Shown here piece after piece: positions 8,981-51,753 of a stretch of 64,000 bases of DNA (its first letter is position 1; each line of letters opens with the position of its first letter). Under the pieces are notes generated by a model. That model did not search any database. It saw only the letters and a program-made list of their open reading frames with translations, and had not been told where the DNA came from. Source of the stretch: Prevotella sp. (GTDB lineage Bacteria; Bacteroidota; Bacteroidia; Bacteroidales; Bacteroidaceae); the NCBI GenBank assembly GCA_017618275.1, contig JAFZUS010000067.1, forward strand, positions 1 to 64,000. The letters are read 5' to 3'. Made by a program: the position numbers and the translations under genes.

Positions 8981-8989
8981 TAGAAAATC

Positions 8990-13257: not shown

Positions 13258-13286
13258 ACAACGTATTGATATTTTTAGTAACTTTG
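13253..13286 (+). promoter_or_regulatory. Promoter of the primary sigma factor gene
   Basis: A TTTG -33 element at 13253-13256, overlapping the uvrA stop codon, and a TAACTTTG -7 element at 13279-13286 are separated by 22 nt. The transcript would start near 13292, leaving a leader of about 65 nt before ATG 13360. Confidence 0.75.
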
Positions 13287-13359
13287 CATCCGCTTTCAGG
13301 TAAAATTCAGGATATTAGTTTGATAATCAAACAGTTAAAGACGTTTTTAGGAAAAAAGG

Positions 13360-14232: not shown

Positions 14233-14245
14233 AACCCCAAAAAGC

Positions 14246-14270
14246 GTACCTTTGGCTTCGCCGAAAGTAC
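14246..14270 (+). terminator. Hairpin after rpoD, possible terminator or dispersed repeat
   Basis: Arms 14246-14256 and 14260-14270 (GTACCTTTGGC and GCCGAAAGTAC) pair over 11 bp with two mismatches around a TTC loop. There is no T tract, so a classical terminator is doubtful. A second weak stem (CTTGC at 14278, GCAAG at 14295) and a duplicated CAAGC follow. The element could be an intergenic repeat rather than a terminator. Confidence 0.4.
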
Positions 14271-14331
14271 TCACGTTCTTGCGTCCCTATGGTAGCAAGC
14301 GGCAAGCCGAGCGCGAAAAATCCATAAAATA

Positions 14332-14363
14332 TTTGGATTTTTGCTCACTAATGCGTACTTTTG
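14332..14363 (+). promoter_or_regulatory. Promoter of the DUF5686 gene
   Basis: TTTG at 14332-14335 and TACTTTTG at 14356-14363 with exactly 20 nt between them match the Bacteroidota consensus. The predicted transcript start, about 14368-14371, coincides with the in-frame GTG at 14369, so the mRNA may be leaderless or nearly so. Confidence 0.75.
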
Positions 14364-14368
14364 CATTC

Positions 14369-37229: not shown

Positions 37230-37835
37230 TCACTGCTTTTTTTGTTCACGTATGCACTTTACAAGTCTCTTCAGGACTGCAGAAACTTCATAGTCTCCTT
37301 TTGCCTTATGTTCAAAATACTCGTTACGCAACATAGAACTGATTGAGACATCATAATAACGTCCATTTTTGTATACTGCCTGCCTCATGGTTCCCTCTGT
37401 AATATTAAACATGGCGGTACGCATGGCAATTGTCATTTTATGGTCATTGATGGCACGTCCATAAAGACGATTCAAATTAAGTCTTTCAAAAACATACTCA
37501 TAAACGAACAGATATGATTCAATCCATGCTATGCCGTCTTGATATTTTTTGTCTCCTATAAGGATACCACTAAAATTAGCAGAACTATTAATATAATGGA
37601 TATCTGTCAAACATGCATAGCCAATCATTTTGCCCGAATCTTTTGCACAAATAGCCCAAAACACTCGATAATCATGATGCCTCATCCGGGTTTTGACCCA
37701 ATCGAGTGCCTCTTCCTTACACATTCTTCTGTTCAGCCCTGTACTTAATGTTTTAAGTTCATCATCATTCTTCCATAGATATATCTGTTCTGCATCTTCT
37801 TCTTCAAATGCACGAAAGTATACTGTTCTTTCCAT
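37230..37835 (-). CDS. GNAT family N-acetyltransferase
   Basis: A 201-residue GNAT acyltransferase of the RimJ/RimL or PseH-like kind: VYFRAFEEEDAEQIYLWKND at the N-terminus, KMIGYACLTDIHYINSSANF in the central sheet, GIAWIESYLFVYEYVFERLN and GTMRQAVYKNGRYYDVSISS near the end. Members near sugar genes acetylate or acylate amino sugars from acyl-CoA or, less often, acyl-ACP. It is the last gene of the acyl/phosphonate block before the repeat spacer. A terminal 4-amino group made by the DegT aminotransferase is a plausible acceptor. Confidence 0.8.
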   Translation of the reverse strand: MERTVYFRAFEEEDAEQIYLWKNDDELKTLSTGLNRRMCKEEALDWVKTRMRHHDYRVFWAICAKDSGKMIGYACLTDIHYINSSANFSGILIGDKKYQDGIAWIESYLFVYEYVFERLNLNRLYGRAINDHKMTIAMRTAMFNITEGTMRQAVYKNGRYYDVSISSMLRNEYFEHKAKGDYEVSAVLKRLVKCIREQKKQ

Positions 37836-37905: not shown

Positions 37906-38340
37906 CTATGAAACACGCTCTCCTGCCTTAATAATCTTTGCTTTCTTAAGAATAATCCCGGTTTTCACTATTCTAGCAGGATTTCCTGCAACCAAACTGT
38001 TAGGTGGCACATCTTTTGAAACGACTGCTCCTGCCGCTACAATAGAAGAATCACCTATGGTTACACCAGGAAGAATAATTGAACGTGCTCCGATCAAACA
38101 ATCTTTACCAATATACGTATTTGTTTTTAATCTTCGACATGCATCGTGAGCCAATATCATAGCACCATTTACGATATGGGTACCATCACCAATATGGATG
38201 CCTTTCGGATTAATTGATTTATCCAAATGTGCTTTCCATGAAATCTGCACATCCCAACCAATATCCATCTTATAAACATGACGTAAATACCAAGGATATG
38301 CCCTAACAAATCTACGCCAAAGAACAGCTCGAATTTTCAT
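37906..38340 (-). CDS. Left-handed beta-helix (hexapeptide) acyltransferase
   Basis: A 144-residue trimeric LbH acyltransferase. The hexapeptide repeats run from SINPKGIHIGDGTHIVNGAM through NTYIGKDCLIGARSIILPGV to TIGDSSIVAAGAVVSKDVPP, ending NSLVAGNPARIVKTG, as in maltose/galactoside O-acetyltransferase relatives. It lacks the N-terminal helical domain, so it is a minimal version. A family member beside an ACP and reductase gene could take acyl-ACP as LpxA and LpxD do, but acetyl-CoA is more common. It lies 28 nt from the SDR gene. Confidence 0.82.
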   Translation of the reverse strand: MKIRAVLWRRFVRAYPWYLRHVYKMDIGWDVQISWKAHLDKSINPKGIHIGDGTHIVNGAMILAHDACRRLKTNTYIGKDCLIGARSIILPGVTIGDSSIVAAGAVVSKDVPPNSLVAGNPARIVKTGIILKKAKIIKAGERVS

Positions 38341-38368: not shown

Positions 38369-39124
38369 TTAATAAAGGGTTTTGCCACCATCTATAATTA
38401 ATGAATGACCCGTTACAAAAGATGAAGCATCAGACAGCAAATAGACAATACCCAATGCGACCTCTTGAGGCTCTCCATAACGTTTCATTGGATAAGTTTG
38501 CATATCCTTTTGACGATCCTCCTCTGAATAAGTCCCATTTTTTACCAGCCCTGTATTAATCATGCCTGGATTAACACTATTGCAACGAATACCACTCATG
38601 GCAGACTCCAACGCGACATTCTTCATAAACACCTGAAGGGCACCTTTCGATGAACCATACATGGCATTGCCAAAGGCCGTTGTATAGACACCACCTATGG
38701 ATACCGTAAAGACTATTGATGAACTTTTAGAGAATTTTTTCTTTCTCAATAGTTTTTGAGTCAGGAACATTGGAGCCATCGCATTGATAGACATAATACG
38801 GCTCAGGTCTTCACGATTAATAAATTTCACTGGAGCAGGTTTTGTTACCCCGGCATTGCTGACAAAACCATCAAGTTTGTCTATCTCACCAACCAACTTG
38901 TCTATCTCTTCATCAGCAGTAAGGTTTGCTACTATATATCGATGAGCCTCCTGATTCTCCAATTGCTCAAGGGTTAATTTTAGGCCTTCCTCATTGATAT
39001 CTGTCAGTATGAGGTGAGCGCCAAGTTTAGAACACTCAATAGCCGTAGCCCTACCTATACCACCTGCAGCACCAGTAATCAGGATGACCTTACCTTCAAG
39101 GGAAAACGGATTATATCCTATCAT
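38369..39124 (-). CDS. SDR oxidoreductase, FabG-like
   Basis: A 251-residue classical short-chain dehydrogenase. The cofactor site is VILITGAAGGIGRATAIECS, NAG is in DGFVSNAGVTKPAPV, the catalytic Ser lies in FTVSIGGVYTTAFGNAMYG and the Tyr-x-x-x-Lys in MYGSSKGALQVFMKNVALES, and the end SFVTGHSLIIDGGKTLY is typical of FabG-type reductases. Its start codon overlaps the stop codon of the carrier protein gene at 39124 (TAATG), so it most likely reduces a 3-oxoacyl group on that carrier protein. It is one of two SDRs in this module. Confidence 0.85.
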   Translation of the reverse strand: MIGYNPFSLEGKVILITGAAGGIGRATAIECSKLGAHLILTDINEEGLKLTLEQLENQEAHRYIVANLTADEEIDKLVGEIDKLDGFVSNAGVTKPAPVKFINREDLSRIMSINAMAPMFLTQKLLRKKKFSKSSSIVFTVSIGGVYTTAFGNAMYGSSKGALQVFMKNVALESAMSGIRCNSVNPGMINTGLVKNGTYSEEDRQKDMQTYPMKRYGEPQEVALGIVYLLSDASSFVTGHSLIIDGGKTLY

Positions 39125-39354
39125 TATGCCTTTGCCTTTACTGCATTGAACAGATCTTCCACGGTTGTGGAATTCCTAATGTCTTCACCCTTGAGTGTAA
39201 CTTCATACTCTTCATCCACCATTGCAATCACAGAGAGTGCAATCAATGAAGACCACTCATCAAGTTCTTTAAATACAGTTTCTGCATTAATTACACTTAC
39301 ATCAGTATCATCAAACTGTTCAGCAAACTTCTCAATAAAATCTTTAATTTCCAT
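39124..39354 (-). CDS. Acyl carrier protein
   Basis: A 76-residue acidic four-helix carrier protein, MEIKDFIEKFAEQFDDTDV. The 4'-phosphopantetheine serine is Ser36 in LDEWSSLIALSVIAMVDEEY, in the place of the usual DSL motif, and the end VEDLFNAVKAKA is typical. ATG 39354 is chosen over an in-frame ATG upstream at 39435 because the extra residues there are not ACP-like and overlap the LicD gene. It carries acyl intermediates for the adjacent SDR, with which it overlaps by one base. It is not the housekeeping AcpP. Confidence 0.85.
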   Translation of the reverse strand: MEIKDFIEKFAEQFDDTDVSVINAETVFKELDEWSSLIALSVIAMVDEEYEVTLKGEDIRNSTTVEDLFNAVKAKA

Positions 39355-39394
39355 AATTTCACCAATTTGTATATTAATTTCACATTCTATGATT

Positions 39395-40189
39395 TTATTC
39401 AGTATAATATGCTTTATAATTATGCTTGGGAACACGCTCCGATTCTGGAGGGAATTTCATATAATCTCCGTATGTGATTTTTAGAAACTCATCGTACCCT
39501 TTAATTATTTTTGATTTAAACTCCTCAAAATCAACATCTATAATTTCATCTAACAAATTGTTAGGGAAGTATCGAAACTTCATATATGGTGTTCCATACC
39601 ATATACAGACGCGCTTAGTTTGTTGACTATTATACGCTGTAAGGCAATTCTCAACCCTATCATAAATCCAAAATGAAGAAAATGGGAGTAATAATAGTCT
39701 AATTGTTCTTTTGACTACTCGTCTCATTAGACTTTGTCCAACAAGGTTCTGAATTTTTAAACGGTATATTTTTACCCAAAAATCACGCTTCATCTCCCAT
39801 AGTTTCAATTTCTGATCAGGTGCATTGTCATACGGGAAAATGGAGACCCAAACCCCAAAATAACTTTTGGAACGATTTTTTAAAAATACACATGTTTTCT
39901 TATCGAATATTTTTGTATTTAGATACAAATGGTTCTTGTCTACTTTTGGCGTATATATAGCATATTGGGGATCATTATAAACTTTCAAGAAACGGTTATG
40001 ATCTTCGCGTGACATCATCAAATCAATATCATCATCCCAAGGAATAAAGCCATGATGACGAATGGCTCCAATCATAGTTCCCCAACAAAGAGAATATTTA
40101 ATATTATTCTCACGGCAACATCTGTCAATACTTTCTAAAGTCTTGACCATGATTTGTTTGGACTCTTCAAACGATACCTCTCTCATCAT
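39395..40189 (-). CDS. LicD family phospho-/phosphonotransferase
   Basis: A 264-residue LicD protein. The catalytic metal-binding block GFIPWDDDIDLMM lies at residues 47-59 (Asp52, Asp53, Asp54, Asp56) after SLCWGTMIGAIRHH; further hallmarks are NRFLKVYND and the C-terminal GYDEFLKITYGDYMKFPPE. LicD enzymes move phosphocholine from CDP-choline to a sugar. No choline kinase or uptake gene is here; instead the locus makes a phosphonate with fused cytidylyltransferase domains, so a CMP-phosphonate is the more likely donor. The gene is AT-rich, more so than the PEP mutase genes. It lies between the two carrier-protein genes. Confidence 0.88.
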   Translation of the reverse strand: MMREVSFEESKQIMVKTLESIDRCCRENNIKYSLCWGTMIGAIRHHGFIPWDDDIDLMMSREDHNRFLKVYNDPQYAIYTPKVDKNHLYLNTKIFDKKTCVFLKNRSKSYFGVWVSIFPYDNAPDQKLKLWEMKRDFWVKIYRLKIQNLVGQSLMRRVVKRTIRLLLLPFSSFWIYDRVENCLTAYNSQQTKRVCIWYGTPYMKFRYFPNNLLDEIIDVDFEEFKSKIIKGYDEFLKITYGDYMKFPPESERVPKHNYKAYYTE

Positions 40190-40212
40190 TTATTATTATA
40201 AAATAGAGAACT

Positions 40213-40452
40213 TTAAATCGTGATTTCGTACTTCTTCAGTATTTCCTTAGCATTATCGTATGATGAAAATCCAAGGATATCCTCTGCATCAAGCATGATA
40301 TCAAACTCATCCTCAACTGCACTTGTCAGGCTCAACTGATGAACACTATCCCATGTGTCTACGTTCTCATTATCAAAATTTGATCCAAGGACAGAAACAT
40401 CCACAGAGAACACCTCCGCAAAGATGTTATTCAGTTTTTCTAAATTTGTCAT
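40213..40452 (-). CDS. Acyl carrier protein
   Basis: A 79-residue acidic carrier protein, MTNLEKLNNIFAEVFSVDVS, with the phosphopantetheine serine at Ser36 in NVDTWDSVHQLSLTSAVEDE and a conserved C-terminal helix. The sequence differs clearly from the second carrier at 39124, so the two may hold different substrates. It lies 12 nt after the acyl-adenylate ligase stop codon, which suggests that the ligase charges this carrier. Confidence 0.85.
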   Translation of the reverse strand: MTNLEKLNNIFAEVFSVDVSVLGSNFDNENVDTWDSVHQLSLTSAVEDEFDIMLDAEDILGFSSYDNAKEILKKYEITI

Positions 40453-40464
40453 AATATTCTGTAT

Positions 40465-41844
40465 TTATTGATTAATTACTTTTCCCGCTTCATTCCTTAA
40501 GATTTTGTCCACCACAACAATCTCAATATTCTTATGGAAGAGATGTGTCTTTTCTTCAATAAAGGCTGGCAAGGCCTCGGAAATCTCACTATTTGTTATT
40601 AACACAGTTAATTTTTCATCTGTTCCCTTGCAATAGCAATCAACATTATAAGTTGACTTTATAATGTTCTCTACTTCATCAAGACCAATTCTCAATCCAA
40701 AAATTTTCAAGAACCTCTTCAACCGCCCGACAATATAGTAACATCCGTCAGCGTCGCGCCTTGCCAAATCTCCTGTATGCATAACGCCATGGTTCTCGTC
40801 ACCTATGATTAGGTCTTCTATACAATTGGCATAGCCAAGAGTAACATTCTCTCCACGATATACCATCTCACCCAATGCTTCACCCTCAAATGTTTCGTTG
40901 CCATTATTATCAATAATCGACAATTGTCCTCCTGGCTCAGCCTTTCCTATACTACACGTCTTCTCTATTGCTAATTCTGCAGGGAGATAAGCCATACGAG
41001 CAGTACATTCCGACTGACCGTATGTCGGAATAAACTTTTTCCCTTTCTCCTGAGCATACTTAGCCAATGCAACAAACAAATCTTCTGTCAGTTTTCCACC
41101 TCCTTGGGTAATGATTTTCAAATTGGGCAAATCCATGCGTGTAAAGCGCATTTTCATCAAAATTTCATAACTATAGGGGACACCTGTAAAACTTGTAGCC
41201 TCCTTTAACATCTCCCAGAAGCCTTTGTCAAGGAGAGATCTTCCAGAAAGAAGTAATGTCGCTCCTGCTAAAAGATGAGAAGCGATAACAGAAAGTCCCA
41301 TAGTATAATGCATCGGTAATATTGCCATTGCCTTCTCTGATGGAGTTAGTTTGAACATCCTCAAAACATTATATGCATTTGCTTCAATATTTCGATACGA
41401 ATGACGCACCAATTTCGGACTGCCAGTAGAGCCAGAGGTGGGTAATAACAAGGACAGTTCCTTATATAATGACTTCGGAGCATTACCTGTTCTTAGAAGC
41501 GTAAAGCCATAATCAGAAAACACAATCTCACACCCTAATTGTGACACCATCTCATCAGGAGCCCACAAATACTCTGGTTTATACTGATTGAAGAGATTCT
41601 CATAGAGACTCTTTTCTGTTTTCGCACTCAGTATCAAAGGAACAATTCTATTACTCAGTGACGATGTATAACCCAACAATGAGCCAATACGGTTCTCCGC
41701 CAATATAAAAATCAGAGAACGTTCTGGCAGATATTCCACAAATTTCTGAGAGAAATCGCAGATATCGCCATATGTTAGGGATGTCCCGCTATCGTCAATG
41801 ACAGCAACGGATGTTCTCTCTTTTTTATCTAGTTCAAGAAACAT
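40465..41844 (-). CDS. Acyl-adenylate-forming ligase (AMP-binding)
   Basis: A 459-residue ANL-superfamily enzyme, somewhat short. The phosphate-binding loop is LLLPTSGSTGSPKL near residue 130; later motifs are FIPTYGQSECTARMA, GVMHTGDLARRDADG (ADP-binding Asp) and the C-terminal RNEAGKVINQ with the catalytic Lys of motif A10. It activates a carboxylic acid as acyl-AMP and should load it onto a carrier protein thiol, with the ACP gene 12 nt downstream as the obvious partner. It lies 3 nt after the ketosynthase gene. The acid is unknown. Confidence 0.85.
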   Translation of the reverse strand: MFLELDKKERTSVAVIDDSGTSLTYGDICDFSQKFVEYLPERSLIFILAENRIGSLLGYTSSLSNRIVPLILSAKTEKSLYENLFNQYKPEYLWAPDEMVSQLGCEIVFSDYGFTLLRTGNAPKSLYKELSLLLPTSGSTGSPKLVRHSYRNIEANAYNVLRMFKLTPSEKAMAILPMHYTMGLSVIASHLLAGATLLLSGRSLLDKGFWEMLKEATSFTGVPYSYEILMKMRFTRMDLPNLKIITQGGGKLTEDLFVALAKYAQEKGKKFIPTYGQSECTARMAYLPAELAIEKTCSIGKAEPGGQLSIIDNNGNETFEGEALGEMVYRGENVTLGYANCIEDLIIGDENHGVMHTGDLARRDADGCYYIVGRLKRFLKIFGLRIGLDEVENIIKSTYNVDCYCKGTDEKLTVLITNSEISEALPAFIEEKTHLFHKNIEIVVVDKILRNEAGKVINQ

Positions 41845-41847
41845 GTT

Positions 41848-42927
41848 TTACTCTTCTGTATTTTCTGAATGGAGAATAGCCAACTCTGGCACAACAAGGT
41901 TCTCCGTTTTAAACAACATGGTTCCCCAAGTAAGACCCAAACCAAATGCAGATGCCATCAGACATAACTTATTATTTTTCAAGTCATCAGCAATCTCCGA
42001 TACCATCAGCATAGGAATCGATGCACCTCCAAGATTTGCAAATTTATGGAGATTCGAAGGTGTCTTTGCGATATCAAGTCCGGACTTTTTCACCACCTTA
42101 TCAACAATCATCTTATTTGCCTGATGAATCAAGAAATAATCAATATCCTTGTCTTTATCAACGCCATATTGTTCAAGCAATGCCTTGATTGATTTTGGTG
42201 GTCTGGTGATAGCGAAAGCAAATACATCCATTCCCTGAATAAGAGAGTGCACTGGTGCACGAACCACCCCATTTCCGAAATCTTCATATTCAAACGACTC
42301 TGGTGTCACTTGATGACGGAATCCACTATGAGGTGTTATCAAAGCCTCATAGCCTTTACCGAATGAATTCATATCTATAATGATATCGTCTGCATTTTCT
42401 TCAAACTCCAAGGCAACGGCTGTACCACAATCTCCAAATAAAGGAAGACGACTTTTGTCTTTTGGCGACCCCATCCTGGTGATGGTATCACCTATTAACA
42501 ATATAGCACGCTTTACATCTCCTGTCTGCATCATCTTTCCGACGATGCAAACGGAATAAATAAAACCGCAACAACCCATAGGCAGGTCGAAAGTCATACA
42601 ACTCGAAGGTAGACCTAATCTATCCTGAAGAATACATGATGTAGGTGGGGTACGATAATCTGCTGTTACCGATTCAAAAGAAAGAATACCTATACTTTCT
42701 TTTTCCCAGCCCAAGCCTTCTATCAAATTCTCTGCAGCAAGTTTACAAAGATCAGAGGCACATTCGCCATTCTGAGCTACATACCTATTCTCTATACCCA
42801 CAGTCTTGATAAATGTCTCAGCATCATCACGACTGAAAAAGTCATAGTCGTATGTAGATACTTTTGTCTCTGGTACAACAGCAGAGACACCCTTAATTTT
42901 AACATTCTTAATTGTAAATAAAGCCAT
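41848..42927 (-). CDS. 3-oxoacyl-ACP synthase III-like ketosynthase
   Basis: A 359-residue FabH-type enzyme. The catalytic triad is visible: Cys at about 119-120 in FDLPMGCCGFIYSVC, His at about 267 in FLIHQANKMIVDKVV, and Asn at about 297 in FANLGGASIPMLM. Two adjacent cysteines replace the common single Cys, so the nucleophile needs proof. FabH-type enzymes condense an acyl-CoA or acyl-ACP with malonyl-ACP or transfer an acyl group. With the ligase, two carriers and two SDRs it forms a short acyl-building line. It is longer than FabH (about 320), like ketosynthase III paralogues of surface-sugar loci. Confidence 0.88.
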   Translation of the reverse strand: MALFTIKNVKIKGVSAVVPETKVSTYDYDFFSRDDAETFIKTVGIENRYVAQNGECASDLCKLAAENLIEGLGWEKESIGILSFESVTADYRTPPTSCILQDRLGLPSSCMTFDLPMGCCGFIYSVCIVGKMMQTGDVKRAILLIGDTITRMGSPKDKSRLPLFGDCGTAVALEFEENADDIIIDMNSFGKGYEALITPHSGFRHQVTPESFEYEDFGNGVVRAPVHSLIQGMDVFAFAITRPPKSIKALLEQYGVDKDKDIDYFLIHQANKMIVDKVVKKSGLDIAKTPSNLHKFANLGGASIPMLMVSEIADDLKNNKLCLMASAFGLGLTWGTMLFKTENLVVPELAILHSENTEE

Positions 42928-42937
42928 ATTTTCTTTT

Positions 42938-43669
42938 TTATATTATTGCAGCGCCGTCAACACCAAGTACTTGTCCCGTAACGTATGAAGACATATCAGA
43001 AGCCAAATAAAGCGCTGTGTTTGCGATATCCTTAGGTTCTGCCAATCTACCAAATGGAATATCATTAATCTTCTGACTAAATTTCTCCTCCAATACAGCC
43101 TTGAACCGTTCCGTTCCTACCATACCCGGTGCTATAGCATTCACACGAATATGGTTATTTGCAAGTTCTTTCGCTGCTGATTTTGTAGCAGACACCACAG
43201 CGCCTTTGGTCGCTGAGTATGATAATTGACCTGCAGCACCCTTAACCCCAACCATGCTGGCCATATTAATGATAGAACCATCCTGTTGACGTGACATGAC
43301 ACGTGCCACCAACTGCATCAGATGAATCAGAGAAACCACATTAACTTCTATCATTTTACGGAATTTGTCATAGTCAATCATGCTCATCATTTCGTAGGAT
43401 ATCAATCCTGCGTTATTCACCAACACATCAATGTGCCCATGCTCTTTTTTGATAGACATAACACAATTCTTCACGGCTGCAAAATCACAGATATCAACGC
43501 AAAATCCGAAGACAGATTTGCTCCCTTCCGTCCATATCAAATCCTCTTTCCGTATATCCAAAGCATAAACCACTGCTCCTTCTTGAACAAATGTCTCTGC
43601 GATGGAGCGTCCGATACCACGGCCAGCTCCTGTAACAATACAAACCTTATTTTGAAGTATATTCTCCAT
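42938..43669 (-). CDS. SDR oxidoreductase, FabG-like
   Basis: A 243-residue classical SDR: VCIVTGAGRGIGRSIAETFV at the NAD(P) site, VLVNNAGLISYEMM, INMASMVGVKGAAGQLSYSA with the catalytic Ser, then SYSATKGAVVSATKSAAKEL carrying Tyr-x-x-x-Lys, and YVTGQVLGVDGAAII at the end. It is the closest in form to a 3-oxoacyl-ACP reductase. It lies between the iron alcohol dehydrogenase (6 nt) and the ketosynthase (10 nt), joining the phosphonate and acyl modules without a break. It differs from the SDR at 38369, so two reductions or two substrates are likely. Confidence 0.86.
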   Translation of the reverse strand: MENILQNKVCIVTGAGRGIGRSIAETFVQEGAVVYALDIRKEDLIWTEGSKSVFGFCVDICDFAAVKNCVMSIKKEHGHIDVLVNNAGLISYEMMSMIDYDKFRKMIEVNVVSLIHLMQLVARVMSRQQDGSIINMASMVGVKGAAGQLSYSATKGAVVSATKSAAKELANNHIRVNAIAPGMVGTERFKAVLEEKFSQKINDIPFGRLAEPKDIANTALYLASDMSSYVTGQVLGVDGAAII

Positions 43670-43675
43670 AAAAAA

Positions 43676-44818
43676 TTAATTATGCACTAATAGTTTCTTA
43701 TATAAGAACTTGATTGTTTCATCATCCAACTCAATAGGATTGTTCTTTAACCGAATAGGGTTTACGGATGATGATAAAAGCAAGATGTCAGATAGAAGAT
43801 TATCTGAGACCGGGTTAGACAACTCCATCTGTTTCATCATGTTACTGAAAATAGAAACGGCTTCTGAAGGTGTATTAGCCCCCATCGAATGAGCAATCTC
43901 GTCAAATACGCCCATCAGATACTCACTTCCCCGCTTGTCAGTGCACCTCTCTGGATGTTCCAACATATATTCCCAAATTACAGGCAGACAAACTGCCACA
44001 GCATGCCCATGAGGGAAACCGTATAAGGAAGTGATTTTGTAACTCATCGCATGGGCTGCAGTAGTGGCTGTGATATTGATGGCTCGCCCGCCATAATTCG
44101 CACCCAACATGATATTGGCAGCAGACTCGTCATCATTTTCAAAGATATACTTTTGCCAGTTGGCCATAATGAGTTCTATAGTCTTACGACTATACTCATA
44201 ACTTTCATCTGTAGAATTGACTGACCACCAGGACTCAATGCCCTGGCAAAGCGCATCCATCATCGTACACTTCTTCTGATAGAGCGGGAGGGTTTTTAAT
44301 ACAGATGGCTCCAAAATGGCGACATCAGGAAGTATACCATCATTAGTAACTGTCTGTTTGGAACCTTCATAATACATGACGGCATTATGCGTTGATTCAC
44401 TACCTGTACCTGCTGTAGTGGGAATGGCTATAAAAGGGATTCTTGTTCCATCACATTCTACCCTGGTGTTTACCAAAGGAGGGATAATGGCGTCATTGCC
44501 TTCTTTTGCCAAGACAGCAAGTTTGATACATTTGGCGACATCTATGGCGCTGCCGCCACCTACTGCCAAAAGTGTATCACATTTCGTGATATGGAAAAGA
44601 TCTATGCCCTTACAAACATCTTCATAGACTGGATTTGGGGAGAAATCAGTGAATACCACATGGGGAACACCCATATTCTCAATATCGGTCTTGATGTTGA
44701 GATAAGGGAAACTACTGTCACAGACCAGAAAAACTTTCTTTGAGTCTTTCAAGGTTTCACTCAAATGGGATATGCCGTTTAATATAACTTGATTTGTCAT
44801 TTTTACATTTAATTCCAT
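43676..44818 (-). CDS. Iron-dependent alcohol dehydrogenase; probable phosphonoacetaldehyde reductase
   Basis: A 380-residue group III alcohol dehydrogenase. The NAD site GGGSAIDVAKCIKLAVLAKE lies near residue 88, PTTAGTGSESTHNAVMYY follows, and the metal site is built from DALCQGIES (near 188), AAHAMSY (near 254) and PHGHAVAV (near 270); a Gln stands where many relatives have a His. It follows phosphonopyruvate decarboxylase by 14 nt, which supports reduction of phosphonoacetaldehyde to 2-hydroxyethylphosphonate, the PhpC-type reaction. No transaminase of the 2-aminoethylphosphonate pathway lies next to it. ATG 44818 is used; ATG 44800 is also possible. Confidence 0.82.
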   Translation of the reverse strand: MELNVKMTNQVILNGISHLSETLKDSKKVFLVCDSSFPYLNIKTDIENMGVPHVVFTDFSPNPVYEDVCKGIDLFHITKCDTLLAVGGGSAIDVAKCIKLAVLAKEGNDAIIPPLVNTRVECDGTRIPFIAIPTTAGTGSESTHNAVMYYEGSKQTVTNDGILPDVAILEPSVLKTLPLYQKKCTMMDALCQGIESWWSVNSTDESYEYSRKTIELIMANWQKYIFENDDESAANIMLGANYGGRAINITATTAAHAMSYKITSLYGFPHGHAVAVCLPVIWEYMLEHPERCTDKRGSEYLMGVFDEIAHSMGANTPSEAVSIFSNMMKQMELSNPVSDNLLSDILLLSSSVNPIRLKNNPIELDDETIKFLYKKLLVHN

Positions 44819-44832
44819 CAATTAGCCGTTAA

Positions 44833-45969
44833 TTAATCTTTCAAGAAAGACATAAGGGCTTCTTTGTTTTGGATGGGGGTTGTGGTGGGACGACCAAGGT
44901 CTTTGCGATTGCCCTTCTTTACGCGAATCTCAATGAAGGTTGCACCTTCAGAAGGAAGAGGTAAAATGGAAGATGGAAGAAGTTTTACCAAATCTTCTTT
45001 ATTATCTACGCTATAGACATGTTTATAACCTACAGCAGATGCGATTGCAAGTAAGTTGATTTTCAGACCGACAGTGGGCTGACCGCCTACACTGTCGTGG
45101 GCACCGTTGTTGAAGACGACGTGGATGTAGTTCTTAGGGGCCTTGTTAGCAACAATGGCCATACTACCCATGTGCATGATAGATGCGCCATCACCATCGA
45201 AGCACCATACTTTGCGGTCTGGTTTTGCCAAAGCAATGCCGAGAGCAATCTGGGAAGCATGCCCCATTGAACCTACAGTCAGGAAGTCACGCTCATGACC
45301 CTCGTTCATCGCTGTGCGATACTCGAAGAGTTCACGGGAAATCATACCAGTGGTAGAAACAATGACATCTTTCTCACCTAACGCTGCAGCAACTGTCTGA
45401 ATGGCCTCCTCACGTGACATCGTAAAATCGTTCTTCTCCACGTTCTGAAGGATATAGGCATCAAAAGTATCTTTTTCAATGACCAGAGCATAACACTGCT
45501 TGGTTGCCTGCATATAGGCTACCGCCTTCTTAATCTGGGCTTCAGCCTTATCCTCTTCTTTTGATAGCACGGTATAGTCAATGCCCATCACATTCAGGAG
45601 ACCTGTAGTAACCTTGCCCTGCTTGACATGCTGAGGTTCATCATGAACACCAGGTTTACCACGCCAGCCAATGACCAGCAAAACAGGGATATTATAGACA
45701 TCAGGATCTGTCAATGAGGCCAGAGGGTTGATGATGTTGCCCTCACCAGAGTTCTGCATATAGACAACAGGAATCTGGCTGGTGGCCAGATAATGACCTG
45801 CCGCCAGGCCCATGGCACCTCCTTCATTGGCTGCGATGATGTTATGGGCAGCATCTGCGTGATCTGTGATATAGGCACAGAGATTCTTCAGCAAGGAGTC
45901 TGGTACACCAGCGTAGAAGTCAATGCCATAGTTGGCTAATGTATCATATAAAAATTGAGGTCTTATCAT
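44833..45969 (-). CDS. aepY: Phosphonopyruvate decarboxylase
   Basis: A thiamine-diphosphate enzyme of 378 residues that decarboxylates phosphonopyruvate to phosphonoacetaldehyde, pulling the unfavourable PEP mutase reaction forward. Hallmarks are YGIDFYAGVPDSLLKNLCAY, ANEGGAMGLAAGHYLAT (with the cofactor Glu), YMQNSGEGNIINPLASL, and the TPP site DGDGASIMHMGSMAIVANKA through VFNNGAHDSVGGQP near residues 254-289. Its start codon overlaps the PEP mutase stop by one base. Sulfopyruvate decarboxylase is excluded by the neighbour. Confidence 0.95.
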   Translation of the reverse strand: MIRPQFLYDTLANYGIDFYAGVPDSLLKNLCAYITDHADAAHNIIAANEGGAMGLAAGHYLATSQIPVVYMQNSGEGNIINPLASLTDPDVYNIPVLLVIGWRGKPGVHDEPQHVKQGKVTTGLLNVMGIDYTVLSKEEDKAEAQIKKAVAYMQATKQCYALVIEKDTFDAYILQNVEKNDFTMSREEAIQTVAAALGEKDVIVSTTGMISRELFEYRTAMNEGHERDFLTVGSMGHASQIALGIALAKPDRKVWCFDGDGASIMHMGSMAIVANKAPKNYIHVVFNNGAHDSVGGQPTVGLKINLLAIASAVGYKHVYSVDNKEDLVKLLPSSILPLPSEGATFIEIRVKKGNRKDLGRPTTTPIQNKEALMSFLKD

Positions 45970-47978
45970 TATTCTTCAGGTATAAGGGTTATTATTTCCT
46001 TGATGGACATACACTTGTCATCGCACTCCTTGGCACGATGGTTCTCGAGAATGGTACGTGCTGCATCCTGCATGGCAGGGAAGCCCGTACGAGTGAGTTG
46101 GTTGGCGTAGATGACAACATTCACGCCCCTGTCCTTGAACTCTTGTTCGGTAACAGTATTGAAAGAAGTGGGAACCACCACGATAGGCGTAGTGGAATTT
46201 TTCTCACGGAACTTCTCAACGAACTCAAAAATTTCAGCCGGGTCTTTCTTGCGGCTATGAATCATGATGGCATCAGCACCAGCCTCGCTGAAGGCGAAGG
46301 CTCGGGTAAGAGCATCTTCCATACCCCGCTCCAGAATAAGGCTCTCAATACGGGCACAAATCATAAACTCCTTGGTCTTCTGAGCATGTTTACCTGCCTG
46401 AATCTTGGCGCAGAAGTTCTCGATGCTGTCCTGAGTCTGCTTCACCTCCGTTCCAAAAAGCGAGTTTTTCTTCAATCCCGTTTTGTCCTCAATGATGACC
46501 ATGCTCACTCCCATACGCTCCAGACTGCGGACGGTATAGACGAAGTGTTCCGTCAGGCCACCAGTGTCTCCATCAAAGATGATAGGCTTGGTAGTCACCT
46601 CCATGATGTCATCAATGGTGCGGAAGCGTGAGGTCATATCCACGAGTTCGATATCTGGTTTACCCTTGGCAGTAGAGTCGCAGAGTGAACTCACCCACAT
46701 AGCATCAAACTGATAGGTCTTACCATCCTGCAGCACCTTGGTCTTCTCAACAATCAGGCCGGTGATACCGCTATGAGCCTCCATTGCTGTCACCAAGCCC
46801 TTCATATTAATGAGTTTACGCAGACGACCACGGCGCACGTCAGGCATGGAAGCCTCAGCACGATGGGCTGCATCCAGTTCCTTATACATGGGATTGTTGC
46901 TATAGGGATATTCTATCAACTTTCCACCAAATTCATTCAACACATCAATGACCTCTTGGCGAATGGGCTGTTGGAAGCCCTCACACCAGTCGTTGCCATG
47001 CACCACATAGTCCGGTTTCAGTTCACGAAGGTTCTTGGCATAACTCAGGGTTTCCTGTGTCACCACACGCTCCACACCCGCCAGATTCTCAAACAAAGCC
47101 TTACGCTCAGCATAAGGAATCAAAGGATAGCGCTTAAAACTGGCCACAGCCTCATCAGAAAGGATACCGATGGTTAAACGACCTAAACGTCTCGCCTTGT
47201 TAATAATGGCAATGTGGCCACTGTGAATATACTCCGTGCTGAAACACATATACACCTTGCGGTCGTTAATCTCTGCTACACGTTTGCTCACAACCTCCAG
47301 GTCCTCAGGCGTATCTATCTCGGCACAGAGCATATCCTTCACATCACAAGGATAAATCTTACACTGGTCAGATACCTCGTTAAAGGCATTCTCAGCATAG
47401 CATTTACGATTGTCTGCCTCACAGAATTTCTCAATGTTCTCCAGCCATACCAGCCAGTCCTCCTTTTTAATTTTATAAAGAGGCTGGGCAGCCATGGCAT
47501 CATCGAAGAACTCTATGCCAACTTTTTCTATCTTGCCATTTTTGATAACAGCCTTAAAGTCCTTCTCTGGAAGAGAAAGTGTGCTACTGACGGCCATGCA
47601 ACTTGTCTCGGAGTTGATGATAGCCTCCATCACCAAACTCTCAAACACCAGGTCGCCATGCATCAGGATGATGTCGTCATCCTTCAACTGTTTCTTGGCA
47701 CAATAAATGGAGTAAATATAATTGGTTGTGGCATACTCAGGGTTGTTAACAAAAGTGAACTTCAAAGGCAGATGCAGTGCATCACAATAGTCTACCAAAA
47801 TCTGATCGTAATAACCTGTTGTCATCACGACCTCCTCTATACCAAACGATACCAACAGTCTGAGTTGACGACTCAGAATCGTATTTCGATACGAAATCTC
47901 CGTCATGCACTTCGGGTGTTCCTTGGTAATCACACCCATTCTATGGCCTAAGCCTGAGTTTAATATTAAGGCTTTCAT
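45969..47978 (-). CDS. pepM: Three-domain PEP mutase with two nucleotidyltransferase domains
   Basis: A 669-residue fusion. Domain 1 (about 1-230) is a LicC-like nucleotidyltransferase: MKALILNSGLGHRMGVITKE, HPKCMTEI and ILMHGDLVFE. Domain 2 (about 240-375) is a TagD/RfaE-type cytidylyltransferase with the HSGH motif near residue 251 in FSTEYIHSGHIAIINKARRL. Domain 3 (about 385-669) is PEP mutase: SGITGLIVEKTKVL, IIFDGDTGGLTEHF near 467, the defining EDKTGLKKNSLFG near 496, and ICARIESLI. The enzyme rearranges PEP to phosphonopyruvate and probably also charges the finished phosphonate with CMP. Both fused domains could use CTP; their division of labour is unknown. Composition is near 50 percent GC, richer than its neighbours. 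Confidence 0.92.
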   Translation of the reverse strand: MKALILNSGLGHRMGVITKEHPKCMTEISYRNTILSRQLRLLVSFGIEEVVMTTGYYDQILVDYCDALHLPLKFTFVNNPEYATTNYIYSIYCAKKQLKDDDIILMHGDLVFESLVMEAIINSETSCMAVSSTLSLPEKDFKAVIKNGKIEKVGIEFFDDAMAAQPLYKIKKEDWLVWLENIEKFCEADNRKCYAENAFNEVSDQCKIYPCDVKDMLCAEIDTPEDLEVVSKRVAEINDRKVYMCFSTEYIHSGHIAIINKARRLGRLTIGILSDEAVASFKRYPLIPYAERKALFENLAGVERVVTQETLSYAKNLRELKPDYVVHGNDWCEGFQQPIRQEVIDVLNEFGGKLIEYPYSNNPMYKELDAAHRAEASMPDVRRGRLRKLINMKGLVTAMEAHSGITGLIVEKTKVLQDGKTYQFDAMWVSSLCDSTAKGKPDIELVDMTSRFRTIDDIMEVTTKPIIFDGDTGGLTEHFVYTVRSLERMGVSMVIIEDKTGLKKNSLFGTEVKQTQDSIENFCAKIQAGKHAQKTKEFMICARIESLILERGMEDALTRAFAFSEAGADAIMIHSRKKDPAEIFEFVEKFREKNSTTPIVVVPTSFNTVTEQEFKDRGVNVVIYANQLTRTGFPAMQDAARTILENHRAKECDDKCMSIKEIITLIPEE

Positions 47979-47994
47979 AAATGAAAAATTATCT

Positions 47995-48924
47995 TTATTT
48001 ATCTACTCTTTTCTTGATTGATTCTATTAACTCAATATAGTAATTAGACCCTTTTTCTATTGAGATGATATTGGTGAAATAATAATAAAAACACTTTAAT
48101 CCCACTGCTCGATTTTTCTTAAATCTTTTATAACTATACCAAAGGCAAGACTGGAAAAATCTGCCTCTTCCACATTTCCAGTTCCACTCTGGATGTCCCA
48201 TATAACTATATAGTTTTGCCCTACGTCGCAGTACATTGAAATGGGCTAAGCATTTGGTTTTAGTGAGTTTACTAAAAGTAATGCTGCCTTCCGTATAAGT
48301 TAACGTATAGACACTCCTCTTATCGACTTTCCATTTCTTGCAAAAATAACTTGTCAGGAGTGAGAACAAATGGTCATTGTCTTTAGGTATCTCTTCGAAC
48401 TGAAAGCCATAGGACTTCACGTAGTCTGTAAGGAGCATCTTACGCCATGGGCCAAAAGCCAAAAAGAGAAGGTTGTTGGAAGCCTCTTCAGAGCCATCAT
48501 AATTTAAGACAAATTTTCTATGAGATGAAACTCGGAAGTACCGATCCTGAGATAAGGTTTCTCCATTAACAGATTCGATGGAGTATATCAACATCTCAAT
48601 ATCATCATCTTTATATTCATCTAATATTGAGATGAAATTGGGACAATAAAAATCATCCGCATCAGCAAAGAGCAACCATTTGCCAGTGGCTGCTTCAATT
48701 CCAACATTGCGGGCATGACCGGCACCTCTTGTATGTTCTTTGTCAATAAAAATAGTCTTGACATCAGGCCTAGTGATATTAGCCTTTTTATCTTCGTCGC
48801 TGTTGTCATCGACAACTATTATCTCAATATCCTCACGCTGCGGAATGGAATCTATGAGACGCTGTAACAAATCTGGCGTATTGTGATGGGGTATAATAAA
48901 AGAATAATTAATCATTGACATCAT
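47995..48924 (-). CDS. Family 2 glycosyltransferase
   Basis: About 309 residues, GT-A fold. The N-terminal part is SFIIPHHNTPDLLQRLIDSI, EIIVVDDNSDED, RGAGHARNVGIEAATGKWLL and FADADDFYCPNF with the Asp-x-Asp metal site. The C-terminal part is basic and aromatic. It adds one sugar to the lipid-linked repeat unit. It is the only clear glycosyltransferase in the locus apart from the initiating transferase. Start is uncertain among ATG 48924, 48921 and 48915; an in-frame TTG at 48936 is less likely. Confidence 0.85.
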   Translation of the reverse strand: MMSMINYSFIIPHHNTPDLLQRLIDSIPQREDIEIIVVDDNSDEDKKANITRPDVKTIFIDKEHTRGAGHARNVGIEAATGKWLLFADADDFYCPNFISILDEYKDDDIEMLIYSIESVNGETLSQDRYFRVSSHRKFVLNYDGSEEASNNLLFLAFGPWRKMLLTDYVKSYGFQFEEIPKDNDHLFSLLTSYFCKKWKVDKRSVYTLTYTEGSITFSKLTKTKCLAHFNVLRRRAKLYSYMGHPEWNWKCGRGRFFQSCLWYSYKRFKKNRAVGLKCFYYYFTNIISIEKGSNYYIELIESIKKRVDK

Positions 48925-48958
48925 TTCAACAAACAAATATTAGTTGCTCATACATATA

Positions 48959-50143
48959 TTAATACATTTTTTTACTGGCACGCATTCTACCGTGTTCCAT
49001 AAAACCTTTTTCTCTTTTCTTGTCTATTTTTCTCTCTATCACTGATGAATAAGGATAAAAACGAGCCAATTGTTGATATCTTGAAAAACCTATCATGAAA
49101 AAGAAAGGAATGAAAATAATAAAGGTTCGTACAAAAGTCACTCCTCTACTCAAACTACTACTCCGTTTAATAAGACTTATAAATAGTTCTGAGAAGAACA
49201 ATATGAAATAGATTTTAAAATAATCTACATATCTATAGACAATATACAAATTTAACTCCATGACCACAAAGATAACACCGAAAAGCAAAAAAGGCTCCAA
49301 TATTAATAAAGGATTTTTATTATCATACTTTTTAAAAAATAACAAAGAAGCGATACTGTATATGATATACGGAAAATACATCACAGCCATGAATTTCAAA
49401 TTATGAGTCTGATCACCATATTTTTCTGAATTCAAATATAGGTCGACCTTTTCTGCCCCAGATTCGCTCACAGCACTTAGCATCATTATATATTGGCCGA
49501 AAATCTTATTCACAAAAATAGCAAATATAAAAGCGCCAAAGACAATTGCGATTCCTAATTTATTCAATCTTAAGAATAAAAAAAATGGAAGCACAAACAT
49601 AACGATGGTCTGCAAATGAAACATCAAGGCTAAACATAATAGCAGATATCCTTTAAACCACTTTTTATCAAGAAAATAATCATAAGCAAACAGGCAAATC
49701 ACAACACTGATACTTGCTCGCATGATTTCCATATTAAAAGAATAATAGAAAGAGAGATAATACAAGAAAATACATGTAAAAAAACAACTACTATGTTTCT
49801 TTATATACTTAAATATCAATACGTTTACTATTGAAGCCTGAATCAATTGAACTATAAAGAATCTTCCACCAAATGTCTTAACAACAGAATTAATCAAAAC
49901 ATAGAAAGGATCTTTTCCTAAACCATATTCCGTAAAAGAGAATTTGTCTAAAGTCGGATGCCAATAATAAAAATATTCGAGATAATTCGGCGTGTCAACT
50001 CCTAGCCGCCACCTTAATCCCGCAATTAATATAAAAACAACCAACACAAACCGATACCAAAAGACAAAATTCTTTGTCTTTCCCTGAATATCGTAGCGGA
50101 GAGAAAGAAAAATAAGGAGAAATAAGACAATTAAGTAAATCAT
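48959..50143 (-). CDS. EpsG/Wzy-type polysaccharide polymerase
   Basis: A 394-residue membrane protein with about ten hydrophobic segments. The N-terminal block FVFWYRFVLVVFILIAGLRW followed by RLGVDTPNYLEYFYYW carries the GLRxxxGxDxxNY pattern of EpsG-family polymerases, and FNMEIMRASISVVICLFAYD gives the conserved Arg in a helix. The family joins lipid-linked repeat units in the periplasm in Wzx/Wzy systems. Its place right after the flippase supports this. It is among the most AT-rich genes of the window. Confidence 0.8.
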   Translation of the reverse strand: MIYLIVLFLLIFLSLRYDIQGKTKNFVFWYRFVLVVFILIAGLRWRLGVDTPNYLEYFYYWHPTLDKFSFTEYGLGKDPFYVLINSVVKTFGGRFFIVQLIQASIVNVLIFKYIKKHSSCFFTCIFLYYLSFYYSFNMEIMRASISVVICLFAYDYFLDKKWFKGYLLLCLALMFHLQTIVMFVLPFFLFLRLNKLGIAIVFGAFIFAIFVNKIFGQYIMMLSAVSESGAEKVDLYLNSEKYGDQTHNLKFMAVMYFPYIIYSIASLLFFKKYDNKNPLLILEPFLLFGVIFVVMELNLYIVYRYVDYFKIYFILFFSELFISLIKRSSSLSRGVTFVRTFIIFIPFFFMIGFSRYQQLARFYPYSSVIERKIDKKREKGFMEHGRMRASKKMY

Positions 50144-50149
50144 TTACTT

Positions 50150-51688
50150 TTATGAATGAAGTCTTTTATTTACAAGAGAATTCACTTTGTTTATTACAAA
50201 ACTTCTTTCTCCACTCTTCATACCTAACAGCATGATAACTAACGTTGAGGCAATCAGACACAGAAGTGTTGACGCTATAAATCCAACAAATGTAGATTTG
50301 AGAGACATTGAAATCATATGGCTCAATCCATAGGACACTGCAAACACTACAAGACAACGTAGCACCACATGAATGAAATATTCTCTGAATTGGTAACCTT
50401 CGACATATCGGTTTATCAGCCAAAAACGGAAACATAAAGCCACAGAATAGGTAAGCAGGGATGGCCACATAGCAGCATAAGGAGGGTATCCTAAATCAAG
50501 CAGTACCCATGCCATTGGCAGTTCACTAAGCATAATAATACTAACGCCTATCTGGAACCACTTGATACGCCCCGTAGCCTGGATTGCCTTTGTAACACAT
50601 TCCGACAGCGCATATAACAACGACGTTATAAGGGTGAATAAAACGAACTGAGCCGTGTATTGCGGGACTACGCCAAGCCAAAGTTTCAGAATATAGTCGA
50701 TATTTATAATGACTGGTAAAGTAATCAGTGTCAGGAGATAGAAGGTATATCGACTGCCAGCATATACCAACTTGCGACTGGCTTCCAAGTTTCCTGCTGC
50801 ATATTGTTTGGTAATCTGCGGATTTAAAGCCATCGTAAAGCTATGAGCAAAAGTTTTCACATGTGAAGAGACATGCATCGCCACACCCCTTGCCGCATTA
50901 ACCGACGGGCCGAAGAACAGGTTGATAATGATATTTGACAATTGATTCTTGAAAGAAAAGCCTAAGTTGCCGATAATGCTCCACCCAGCAAATGAGAACA
51001 TCTCAATAAATAATGGCTTATCGTAAATAAAATGATAGGAACACTCTGAAAAATGACGCTTGCAATAAATAGTATAGCATAGTCGAATCAGCGACACGAC
51101 ACATACCATAAGAATGCTGTATACAATTAACTTGTCAAACGGGAAAACTACAAGCAGGTAAACAATCAATAGTTTTAATACGACATCAAGTATACTGATA
51201 TATGCAAAAGCCGACATTTTTTCATGAGCAACAATAGCCGAATTATAAGGCACACTCATCACATTGATTATAAATGTCACTATTGATGCCTGATAGACCC
51301 AATTGGCTGCTATCATACGATCTTCAGGAATAACAAGTTTCGCATTGACAAACCACAGACCAATTGTTTCGGCAAGAACAAATGCGACCAGACAAATCGT
51401 TGCGTGGATATTGATAGACGTACAGAACACCTTTTTCAATCTTTCATAATCATCTCTGCCAAGTTCAAACGATAGAAAGCGCTGGGATGCTGCCACCATT
51501 GCAGAATTGAGAAATGATGCCATCGTAATAATTCCTGCCACAACATTATAAATACCATAGTCTGTAATGCCTAATGTATTCAGCACTACCCTACTGGTGT
51601 ATAATCCAACAATGGTAGTGATGAACATCCTGAAATACAGCATCAGAGTGTTCTTGGCTATGCGCTTATTATTTGCTGTTTTATCCAT
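50150..51688 (-). CDS. Wzx-type polysaccharide flippase
   Basis: A 512-residue membrane protein with about 12-14 predicted helices, of the MOP/PST exporter superfamily: RIAKNTLMLYFRMFITTIVG, SRVVLNTLGITDYGIYNVVA and VAASQRFLSFELGRDD in the first third are typical of Bacteroidota Wzx proteins. It moves the undecaprenyl-linked repeat unit across the inner membrane. ATG 51688 is used; the in-frame TTG at 51700 has no support. It lies 6 nt upstream of the EpsG-like gene and 171 nt downstream of Wzz, with a repeat array between. Confidence 0.88.
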   Translation of the reverse strand: MDKTANNKRIAKNTLMLYFRMFITTIVGLYTSRVVLNTLGITDYGIYNVVAGIITMASFLNSAMVAASQRFLSFELGRDDYERLKKVFCTSINIHATICLVAFVLAETIGLWFVNAKLVIPEDRMIAANWVYQASIVTFIINVMSVPYNSAIVAHEKMSAFAYISILDVVLKLLIVYLLVVFPFDKLIVYSILMVCVVSLIRLCYTIYCKRHFSECSYHFIYDKPLFIEMFSFAGWSIIGNLGFSFKNQLSNIIINLFFGPSVNAARGVAMHVSSHVKTFAHSFTMALNPQITKQYAAGNLEASRKLVYAGSRYTFYLLTLITLPVIINIDYILKLWLGVVPQYTAQFVLFTLITSLLYALSECVTKAIQATGRIKWFQIGVSIIMLSELPMAWVLLDLGYPPYAAMWPSLLTYSVALCFRFWLINRYVEGYQFREYFIHVVLRCLVVFAVSYGLSHMISMSLKSTFVGFIASTLLCLIASTLVIMLLGMKSGERSFVINKVNSLVNKRLHS

Positions 51689-51753
51689 TTTTATGGCCAA
51701 AATACATCTTTAGAGGTAAATCTCATAAGTAGTTCTCTCATTTTTCATTCGCT

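Follow-up and report, generated by a model that had tools for sequence, protein, structure and literature searches.

Among the phosphonates on the surface of gut bacteria, 2-aminoethylphosphonate (AEP) is the one chiefly known; does a capsule-type operon of Prevotella sp. make a second one without an amine, 2-hydroxyethylphosphonate (HEP)? The operon lies in the window analysed here, the whole 64,000-nucleotide stretch at positions 1 to 64,000 of contig JAFZUS010000067.1 (assembly GCA_017618275.1), from a genome of 3.6 Mb that is 92% complete with 4.9% contamination. Its host is a gut or rumen bacterium, and we consider it probable that the operon makes HEP and places it on a surface polysaccharide of the Wzx/Wzy type. 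Three genes form the core of the predicted route, in which PEP is phosphoenolpyruvate and CyT stands for cytidylyltransferase:

45969-47978, minus strand: PepM triple fusion of 669 aa, with a PntC/LicC-like cytidylyltransferase domain (PF12804, residues 1-235), a Fom1-like CyT domain (PF01467, residues 236-378) and a PEP mutase domain (TIGR02320, residues 386-668)
44833-45969, minus strand: Ppd, phosphonopyruvate decarboxylase (TIGR03297, 506.4 bits, cut-off 312.5)
43676-44821, minus strand: Fe-ADH, iron-type alcohol dehydrogenase (PF00465, PF25137; open reading frame listed with a TTG start), predicted phosphonoacetaldehyde reductase yielding HEP

All genes of the locus are on the minus strand, and a sequence-only reading of this DNA, whose coordinates were exact, had placed PEP mutase, Ppd and Fe-ADH in immediate succession; the three are indeed consecutive genes. 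PepM (TIGR02320, 408.8 bits against a cut-off of 319.55) and Ppd both score above curated equivalog cut-offs. The fused PepM is the only one in its genome, with Pfam matches to PF12804 at residues 3-117 and to PF01467 at residues 251-342. For Fe-ADH, family membership is certain (PF00465, 118 bits; PF25137, 77 bits; both above Pfam cut-offs) and an equivalog is not assigned; its residues Asp189, Gln193, His257 and His271 sit at the usual places of what we take to be the metal ligands. Position 193 is Gln in 76 of 91 sequences and His in 15; nothing was drawn from Gln193 as an odd metal ligand, the aligned methanol dehydrogenase also having Gln there. The stretch EDKTGLKKNS in the window PepM matches the PepM motif EDKxxxxxNS given in the available part of Rice 2019 (PMC6697681).

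In the predicted pathway, the PepM domain would convert PEP to phosphonopyruvate, Ppd would convert this to phosphonoacetaldehyde, and Fe-ADH would reduce the latter to HEP. The N-terminal PntC-like domain of the triple fusion would then use CTP to activate HEP as CMP-HEP, and a LicD-family transferase would pass the HEP phosphonate from CMP-HEP to a sugar of the repeat unit. We infer the enzyme activities, the CMP donor, the LicD step and the polymer alike from the genes. The route from PEP to HEP, already proposed in the sequence-only reading, gains strong support from a conserved gene context, the lack of a transaminase, a switch in an active site and a Ppd-Fe-ADH fusion.

A scan of genome contigs returned 212 relatives of the triple fusion, and the best 80 by similarity to the window were taken as set A, with neighbouring genes counted within 6 kb of PepM. 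Because Ppd and Fe-ADH both accompany the fusion in 73 of these 80 loci, the triad is more than a chance association. Its order is PepM-Ppd-FeADH in 42 of the 44 Bacteroidota loci and PepM-FeADH-Ppd in 29 of the 36 Bacillota loci; the other nine comprise one Bacillota locus with the Bacteroidota order, one Bacteroidota locus (L050) with Ppd and Fe-ADH in one gene, and seven incomplete loci. Gene order in other genomes had been named as a check on the sequence-only reading, and the triad recurs there in two orders and two phyla. The PepM domain of the window is 83-93% identical to those of Bacillota and 55-92% identical (median 58) to those of 44 PepM proteins of its own family that carry the CyT domain without the N-terminal one (CyT-PepM), L181-L183 being at the high end. 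This pattern suggests transfer between phyla. Contamination of metagenome-assembled genomes (MAGs) is an unlikely cause of the similarity, because isolate genomes such as Ruminococcus sp. FC2018 (L057) carry the fusion.

A second set, blind to the fusion, was obtained by running TIGR02320 over 399 genomes of the window's family (set B); in a class-wide sample of 395 genomes only the window's own genome had passed the PepM cut-off, which was too sparse, hence the family sample. PepM was found in 61 of the 399 genomes (63 genes), and 62 loci besides the window's were analysed. Among them are 18 triple fusions, 17 with Ppd and Fe-ADH and one ending at a contig end (L184); 17 of the 18 repeat set-A proteins, which makes this an unbiased count and not a set of new sequences. 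The other 44 are the CyT-PepM loci, 25 of them with Ppd, AEP transaminase and a standalone PntC. Ppd and Fe-ADH together lie beside CyT-PepM in a single case (L158), transaminase and Fe-ADH together in none of the 44, and for the remaining 18 neither transaminase nor Fe-ADH was found within 6 kb; some of the 19 loci without a transaminase in that range are at contig ends. In this single family, then, the third enzyme differs between the two architectures of PepM.

Gene fusions usually join enzymes of one pathway. In L050, a Bacteroidales MAG, Ppd and Fe-ADH share a single 747-aa frame (12038-14281). L080, a Lachnospiraceae MAG, has a 711-aa frame (13318-15450) in which Fe-ADH is joined to LicD and which is open up to the end of the contig. 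A transaminase-type locus, L171, has Ppd and PntC in one 626-aa frame (8096-9976, minus strand), and L040 (the same protein as L185) has a LicC/PntC-like domain fused to LicD (8309-9985), recognised by our own profile alone.

AEP transaminase was found within 6 kb of none of the 80 fusions in set A and none of the 18 in set B, 98 triple-fusion rows in all. In the window genome, 92% complete, the best TIGR03301 score is 35.8 bits, the cut-off being 360.8 and the score of the L131 transaminase, for comparison, 478; the absence of a 2-AEP transaminase noted earlier in the locus extends to the genome. Choline genes had also been reported as missing, and choline kinase (PF01633) has no match at E <= 0.001 in the window genome. 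If the pathway nevertheless ended in AEP, a DegT-type aminotransferase would have to replace the usual transaminase and Fe-ADH would act elsewhere. Two DegT-family genes do lie in the same operon (30003-31250 and 33364-34449); DegT enzymes are sugar aminotransferases. We regard this ending as very improbable. Relatives of the stronger DegT gene occur in just 15 of the 80 loci, whereas Fe-ADH is found with the triple fusion in both phyla and in either gene order, and L050 has it joined to Ppd; both amine-contacting Glu positions of the activating domain are changed in all triple-fusion rows.

These positions were read from an alignment of the Treponema PntC, 31 standalone PntCs (all from CyT-PepM loci, 25 with a transaminase) and 99 triple-fusion rows including the window, which represent 82 distinct sequences (81 plus the window). 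According to the available part of Rice 2019 (PMC6697681), Glu104 and Glu196 of the Treponema denticola PntC are placed to hydrogen-bond the AEP amine, and Arg15, Lys25 and Lys153 matter for its activity. The Glu104 position is Glu in 31/31 standalone PntCs and His in 99/99 triple-fusion rows; that of Glu196 is Glu in 30/31 (one gap, in L135, at a contig end) against Ala in 99/99; and that of Trp218 is Trp in 30/31 against Cys in 98/99 (one gap). The window equivalents are His107, Ala195 and Cys218. Arg15, Lys25 and Asp106 are unchanged in every row of both groups, the catalytic Arg and Lys and the metal-binding Asp of PF12804 nucleotidyltransferases thus being present in 99/99 fusion rows, and Lys153 is retained in neither group (Thr or Val; Ile or Val). 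The substitutions suggest, apart from gene context, that the fused PntC-like domain does not bind AEP in the known way.

Several observations weigh against HEP as the product. Fe-ADH matches no NCBIfam equivalog at cut-off (best 139.9 bits; the phosphonate-linked PsrA model TIGR03405 gives 139.5 bits, below its cut-off of 423.7), and among solved structures a methanol dehydrogenase is closest to it in sequence. Of the seven set-A loci without both partners, three end at a contig end (L045, L048, L053), two (L073, L081) show neither Ppd nor Fe-ADH despite 10 kb on each side, and two (L052, L066) show neither but have just 3.3 and 4.1 kb behind the gene. Each fusion gene described above is a single draft-genome case, in which a stop may have been lost by sequencing error. 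Finally, in the window Ala195 is followed by an invariant Glu196, and the pocket could have been rearranged, its acid shifted, rather than stripped of acid. As a separate observation, L073, L081, L052 and L066 are all Bacillota loci, and in L073 and L081 the fusion is followed by what appear by reading to be dTDP-rhamnose genes.

Which domain of the fusion would activate HEP? CMP activation had been ascribed to the fused domains together; the N-terminal PF12804 domain does look intact, whereas the middle PF01467 domain has lost a signature motif. The best match of the middle domain in the Protein Data Bank (PDB) is 5x3d (E=4e-40), ending before the GISSTR stretch; the entry is deposited as PEP phosphomutase, and we take it to be the cytidylyltransferase domain of Fom1, presumably acting on HEP. 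Both the HxGH and the ISSTR-type motif are needed for catalysis in this superfamily. The window keeps HSGH, and HxGH stands in 98 of 99 triple-fusion rows, while the ISSTR stretch is replaced in triple fusions (PYSNNPMYKEL in the window). In 40 of the 44 CyT-PepM proteins it is HPGH that is replaced, by HPGL, and a GIxSS-like stretch is present in variable form. Both motifs (HTGH, GISSSM) are retained in L158, where Fe-ADH is present and no PntC was seen in the neighbourhood. In L181-L183, PepM resembles that of triple fusions but has no N-terminal domain, and a protein with a CyT domain adjoins.

Because the middle domain has lost its signature motif, the N-terminal domain probably makes CMP-HEP. 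The simplest reading would be that activation passed to the PF12804 domain, the only one that looks catalytically intact, and that the middle domain decayed, probably to a non-catalytic remnant or spacer. The converse, in which the middle domain cytidylylates HEP as its counterpart in Fom1 does and the N-terminal domain has another substrate, draws on 5x3d as the closest solved structure and on the near-universal HxGH; it is unlikely in view of the missing ISSTR stretch, of the catalytic Arg, Lys and Asp kept by the N-terminal domain in every row, and of the loci where no N-terminal domain or PntC is seen, in which both CyT motifs are intact (L158, and a radical-SAM-fused CyT in L181 and L183). 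One intact cytidylyltransferase per locus appears as a tendency that fits the triple fusions, the PntC loci, L158 and L181/L183; as a strict rule it was rejected, being broken by L127, L160 and L167, which have Ppd, a degenerate CyT and no PntC within 6 kb. The PF01467 domain was likewise dropped as a marker of the HEP pathway, since PepM proteins of transaminase-type loci carry it too.

Two kinds of locus with unusual content were met on the way. L181 (8545-10005, minus strand) and L183 (10874-12358, plus strand) encode a radical-SAM/SPASM protein fused to a Fom1-type CyT with HPGH and GVSST intact; Pfam confirms the fusion in L181, and L182 has a CyT-bearing gene at the same place. In L181 and L183 the gene lies between PepM and Ppd, with no Fe-ADH or AEP transaminase within 6 kb, and the locus possibly encodes a phosphonate pathway of a new type acting on a CMP-phosphonate. 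L127, L160 and L167 have CyT-PepM and Ppd with no transaminase, Fe-ADH or PntC seen nearby, and an NAD-dependent dehydratase/epimerase-like gene follows; that of L127, the only one scanned, weakly matches dTDP-glucose dehydratase. A third product is possible for such loci.

The last predicted step, transfer to the glycan, had been assigned to a LicD protein in the same locus:

39395-40189, minus strand: LicD-family transferase (PF04991, 139.9 bits, cut-off 22.6), candidate for transfer from CMP-HEP to the glycan

The gene belongs to the same operon, further downstream and not adjoining the triad, with SDR, KAS III and AMP ligase genes and a 275-nt gap in between. LicD genes were counted with a profile built for this analysis, and the controls were 40 loci anchored on an initiating transferase in PepM-free genomes, mostly of other genera and several at contig ends (729 kb). 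LicD occurs in the analysed stretch of 39/80 set-A, 11/18 set-B and 35/44 CyT-PepM loci, and in 0/40 control capsule-type loci; its distance from PepM is at most 5 kb in 37, 10 and 26 of the three groups, respectively. It is on the same strand and less than 300 nt from a pathway gene, or fused to one, in 25/80, 5/18 and 17/44 loci, Bacillota being included among those of set A. A tree of 97 LicDs was then labelled by locus type, 'AEP' meaning any CyT-PepM locus, including a few without a transaminase (L160, L181-L183). The triple-fusion label needs 10 changes on this tree against a shuffled mean of 31.8, a value that 0 of 500 shuffles reached. One clade of 26 comes solely from CyT-PepM loci (100/99) and another of 16 is mixed 8 to 8; the window LicD stands beside that of L030 in a group (93/91, not starred) whose 32 rows include 29 of triple-fusion and 2 of CyT-PepM origin. 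Host kinship may cause part of this sorting.

The assignment of phosphonate attachment to LicD thus stands in part: enrichment at the loci, the tree and one Fe-ADH-LicD fusion speak for it, and several facts tell against it. LicD is not adjacent to the triad here, 41 of the 80 related loci have none in the analysed stretch, the window genome holds two further LicD genes elsewhere, and in whole genomes LicD is present in 39 of 64 without PepM as well as in 59 of 60 with it. In the window it adjoins the acyl-group module described below, as does one LicD of the nearest relative, L030. HEP and CMP-HEP could therefore be made as proposed while LicD serves another substituent or the acyl module, and a different enzyme attaches HEP. 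The place of LicD beside an acyl carrier protein (ACP) in both loci would suit this arrangement, as would its presence at just 39 of 80 fusions, a LicC-like nucleotidyltransferase outside the window (contig C180) that could supply LicD with another CDP compound, and the LicC/PntC-like domain fused to LicD beside the triple fusion of L040. We hold it to be rather doubtful, given that LicD is adjacent or fused to a pathway gene in 25 of the 80 loci, with the fusion in L080, that it sorts by locus type on the tree, and that none of the 40 control loci has it. LicD is a plausible and good candidate for the phosphonate transferase, and attachment is what we infer from this evidence.

The C180 genes form a locus of their own (L229). 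At 9494-10381 and 17405-18157 it holds a second LicD of this genome and, about 7 kb from it, the LicC-like nucleotidyltransferase; the locus is of lipopolysaccharide type, with EptA/sulfatase-family and lipid A acyltransferase-family genes, which suggests a separate phosphoryl decoration of lipopolysaccharide.

Taken across genomes, we lean, with some reserve, towards a wider proposal: the triple fusion would mark a pathway for HEP tailoring that is widespread among gut Bacteroidota and Bacillota and shared by horizontal transfer. In it, a fused PntC with a rewritten amine pocket (Glu to His, Glu to Ala) would have taken over cytidylylation of HEP from the Fom1-type domain, and the LicDs would have split into HEP-using and AEP-using clades. 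Cultured rumen strains with the triad include Xylanibacter ruminicola D31d, with two copies (L003 and L009), and Ruminococcus sp. FC2018.

The polymer is predicted from the remaining genes of the operon:

50150-51700, minus strand: Wzx-like flippase (MatE match)
48959-50143, minus strand: EpsG/Wzy-like polymerase (PF14897)
47995-48936, minus strand: glycosyltransferase family 2 (GT2)
42938-43669, minus strand: SDR / FabG-like reductase, acyl-group module
41848-42927, minus strand: KAS III-like ketosynthase, acyl-group module
40465-41844, minus strand: AMP-binding ligase, acyl-group module
39124-39435, minus strand: probable acyl carrier protein (EWSSL string and gene context)
38369-39124, minus strand: second SDR
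37906-38340, minus strand: hexapeptide-repeat acyltransferase
37230-37835, minus strand: GNAT acetyltransferase
35666-36823, minus strand: beta-lactamase-family (PF00144) serine hydrolase in the capsule operon, adjoining an ATP-grasp gene
33364-34449, minus strand: DegT-family gene, same operon
32655-33371, minus strand: initiating sugar-phosphate transferase (PF02397, Bac_transf)
30003-31250, minus strand: second DegT-family gene, same operon

Transcription runs from the flippase through polymerase, GT2, PepM, Ppd, Fe-ADH, SDR, KAS III and AMP ligase to LicD, then through ACP, SDR, hexapeptide acyltransferase, GNAT, beta-lactamase-family protein and ATP-grasp protein to DegT, and ends with the initiating transferase, a second ATP-grasp-like protein, the second DegT and sugar-nucleotide genes to 21660. 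Flippase, polymerase and initiating transferase are all present (MatE, EpsG and Bac_transf matches), as in polysaccharide loci of the Wzx/Wzy type. Apart from the initiating transferase, GT2 is the sole glycosyltransferase recognised among the scanned operon genes, which may mean a very short repeat unit or further glycosyltransferases that escaped recognition.

HEP is also an intermediate for fosfomycin and methylphosphonate (available parts of Rice 2019 PMC6697681, PMC9381506 and PMC8931226), and it could here be the precursor of a further phosphonate or small molecule, or be placed on a lipid instead of this polysaccharide. That is improbable, as the window has polymerase and flippase genes on one side of the triad and sugar-nucleotide genes on the other, and the 30 window proteins scanned with Pfam include no methylphosphonate-synthase or radical-SAM family and no fosfomycin genes. 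When flippase, polymerase, GT2 and initiating transferase of the window were each used as a single query, 27 of the 80 loci showed a relative of at least one, with none recognised in 53.

Placement on the polysaccharide remains our preferred reading, and its parts have precedents. Triple fusions, cytidylyl activation of phosphonates, HEP as an intermediate and AEP capsules in Bacteroides are already known. The AEP-type Pnt pathway of Treponema denticola and Atopobium rimae, as described in the available part of Rice 2019 (PMC6697681), shares PepM, Ppd, the PF12804 cytidylyltransferase, LicD-like transferases and the surface-glycan context, whereas here Fe-ADH replaces the AEP transaminase and His and Ala replace Glu104 and Glu196. 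The same source counts triple fusions (42 proteins, 2.8% of PepM), and in the part available it draws no link between fusion type and partner gene, its main text being without the word 'dehydrogenase'. It also describes Fom1 as a CyTase-PepM fusion acting on HEP in fosfomycin biosynthesis. The CyT-PepM part and HEP as cytidylylation substrate, the latter predicted here, are in common with Fom1, but the triple fusion has an extra N-terminal PF12804 domain and its CyT is without the ISSTR stretch, so that the window does not have the HxGH-ISSTR pair of Fom1-type CyTases. With the Lic phosphocholine pathway the locus shares LicC-like activation and LicD-like transfer, but has no choline kinase (LicA) match and would make its substrate from PEP. 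In gene content, the Fe-ADH encoded with PepM and Ppd in those 73 of 80 loci fits an HEP pathway with a PhpC-type phosphonoacetaldehyde reductase. HEP phosphonoglycans of Glycomyces and Stackebrandtia, reportedly described by Yu et al. in 2014, bear HEP on a secreted polysaccharide; these are actinomycetes, and the likeness is HEP on polysaccharide, predicted here from genes alone. Within the same phylum, the capsular polysaccharide of Bacteroides fragilis bears a phosphonate that is AEP (cited in the available part of Rice 2019, PMC6697681), in place of the HEP predicted here.

In the titles and abstract beginnings covered, a partial sample that is not proof of absence, we found neither an HEP-tailoring pathway in gut Bacteroidota or Bacillota nor the link of fusion type to Fe-ADH or transaminase, nor the switch from Glu to His and Ala. 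HEP in place of AEP would change the charge of a polymer from zwitterionic to anionic, and zwitterionic charge underlies the known immune effects of Bacteroides capsules. If the proposal is true, HEP glycans would be frequent among gut surface polymers and would have been overlooked as a class, and the fusion sequence alone would reveal the type of phosphonate, the residue switch in the fused PntC offering an easy way to tell HEP from AEP pathways in genomes. Which transferase moves CMP-phosphonates would become testable with matched LicD pairs and the natural Fe-ADH-LicD fusion.

The operon also holds a run of SDR, KAS III, AMP ligase, ACP-like and SDR genes (38369-43669), interrupted by LicD. 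The ACP candidate has no Pfam or NCBIfam match; its EWSSL string is read, on our assumption, as the ACP motif, and relatives occur in the KAS III-bearing loci L002, L019, L030 and L047. As a part of the phosphonate pathway the module was rejected, KAS III relatives (>100 bits) being found in just 5/80 triple-fusion and 0/44 CyT-PepM loci. SDR, KAS III, AMP ligase, ACP and acyltransferase resemble a Flavobacterium psychrophilum module, thought to build the 3,5-dihydroxyhexanoyl group of its O-polysaccharide by a route similar to that of type II fatty acid synthesis; the available part of that source (PMC6519341) names no AMP ligase for it, and one is present here. By this analogy the module may be a separate decoration, perhaps of an amino sugar. 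L030 holds a close copy of it; in L002 genes of these kinds, less similar to those here, lie on both sides of the triad, and parts occur in L008, L019 and L047.

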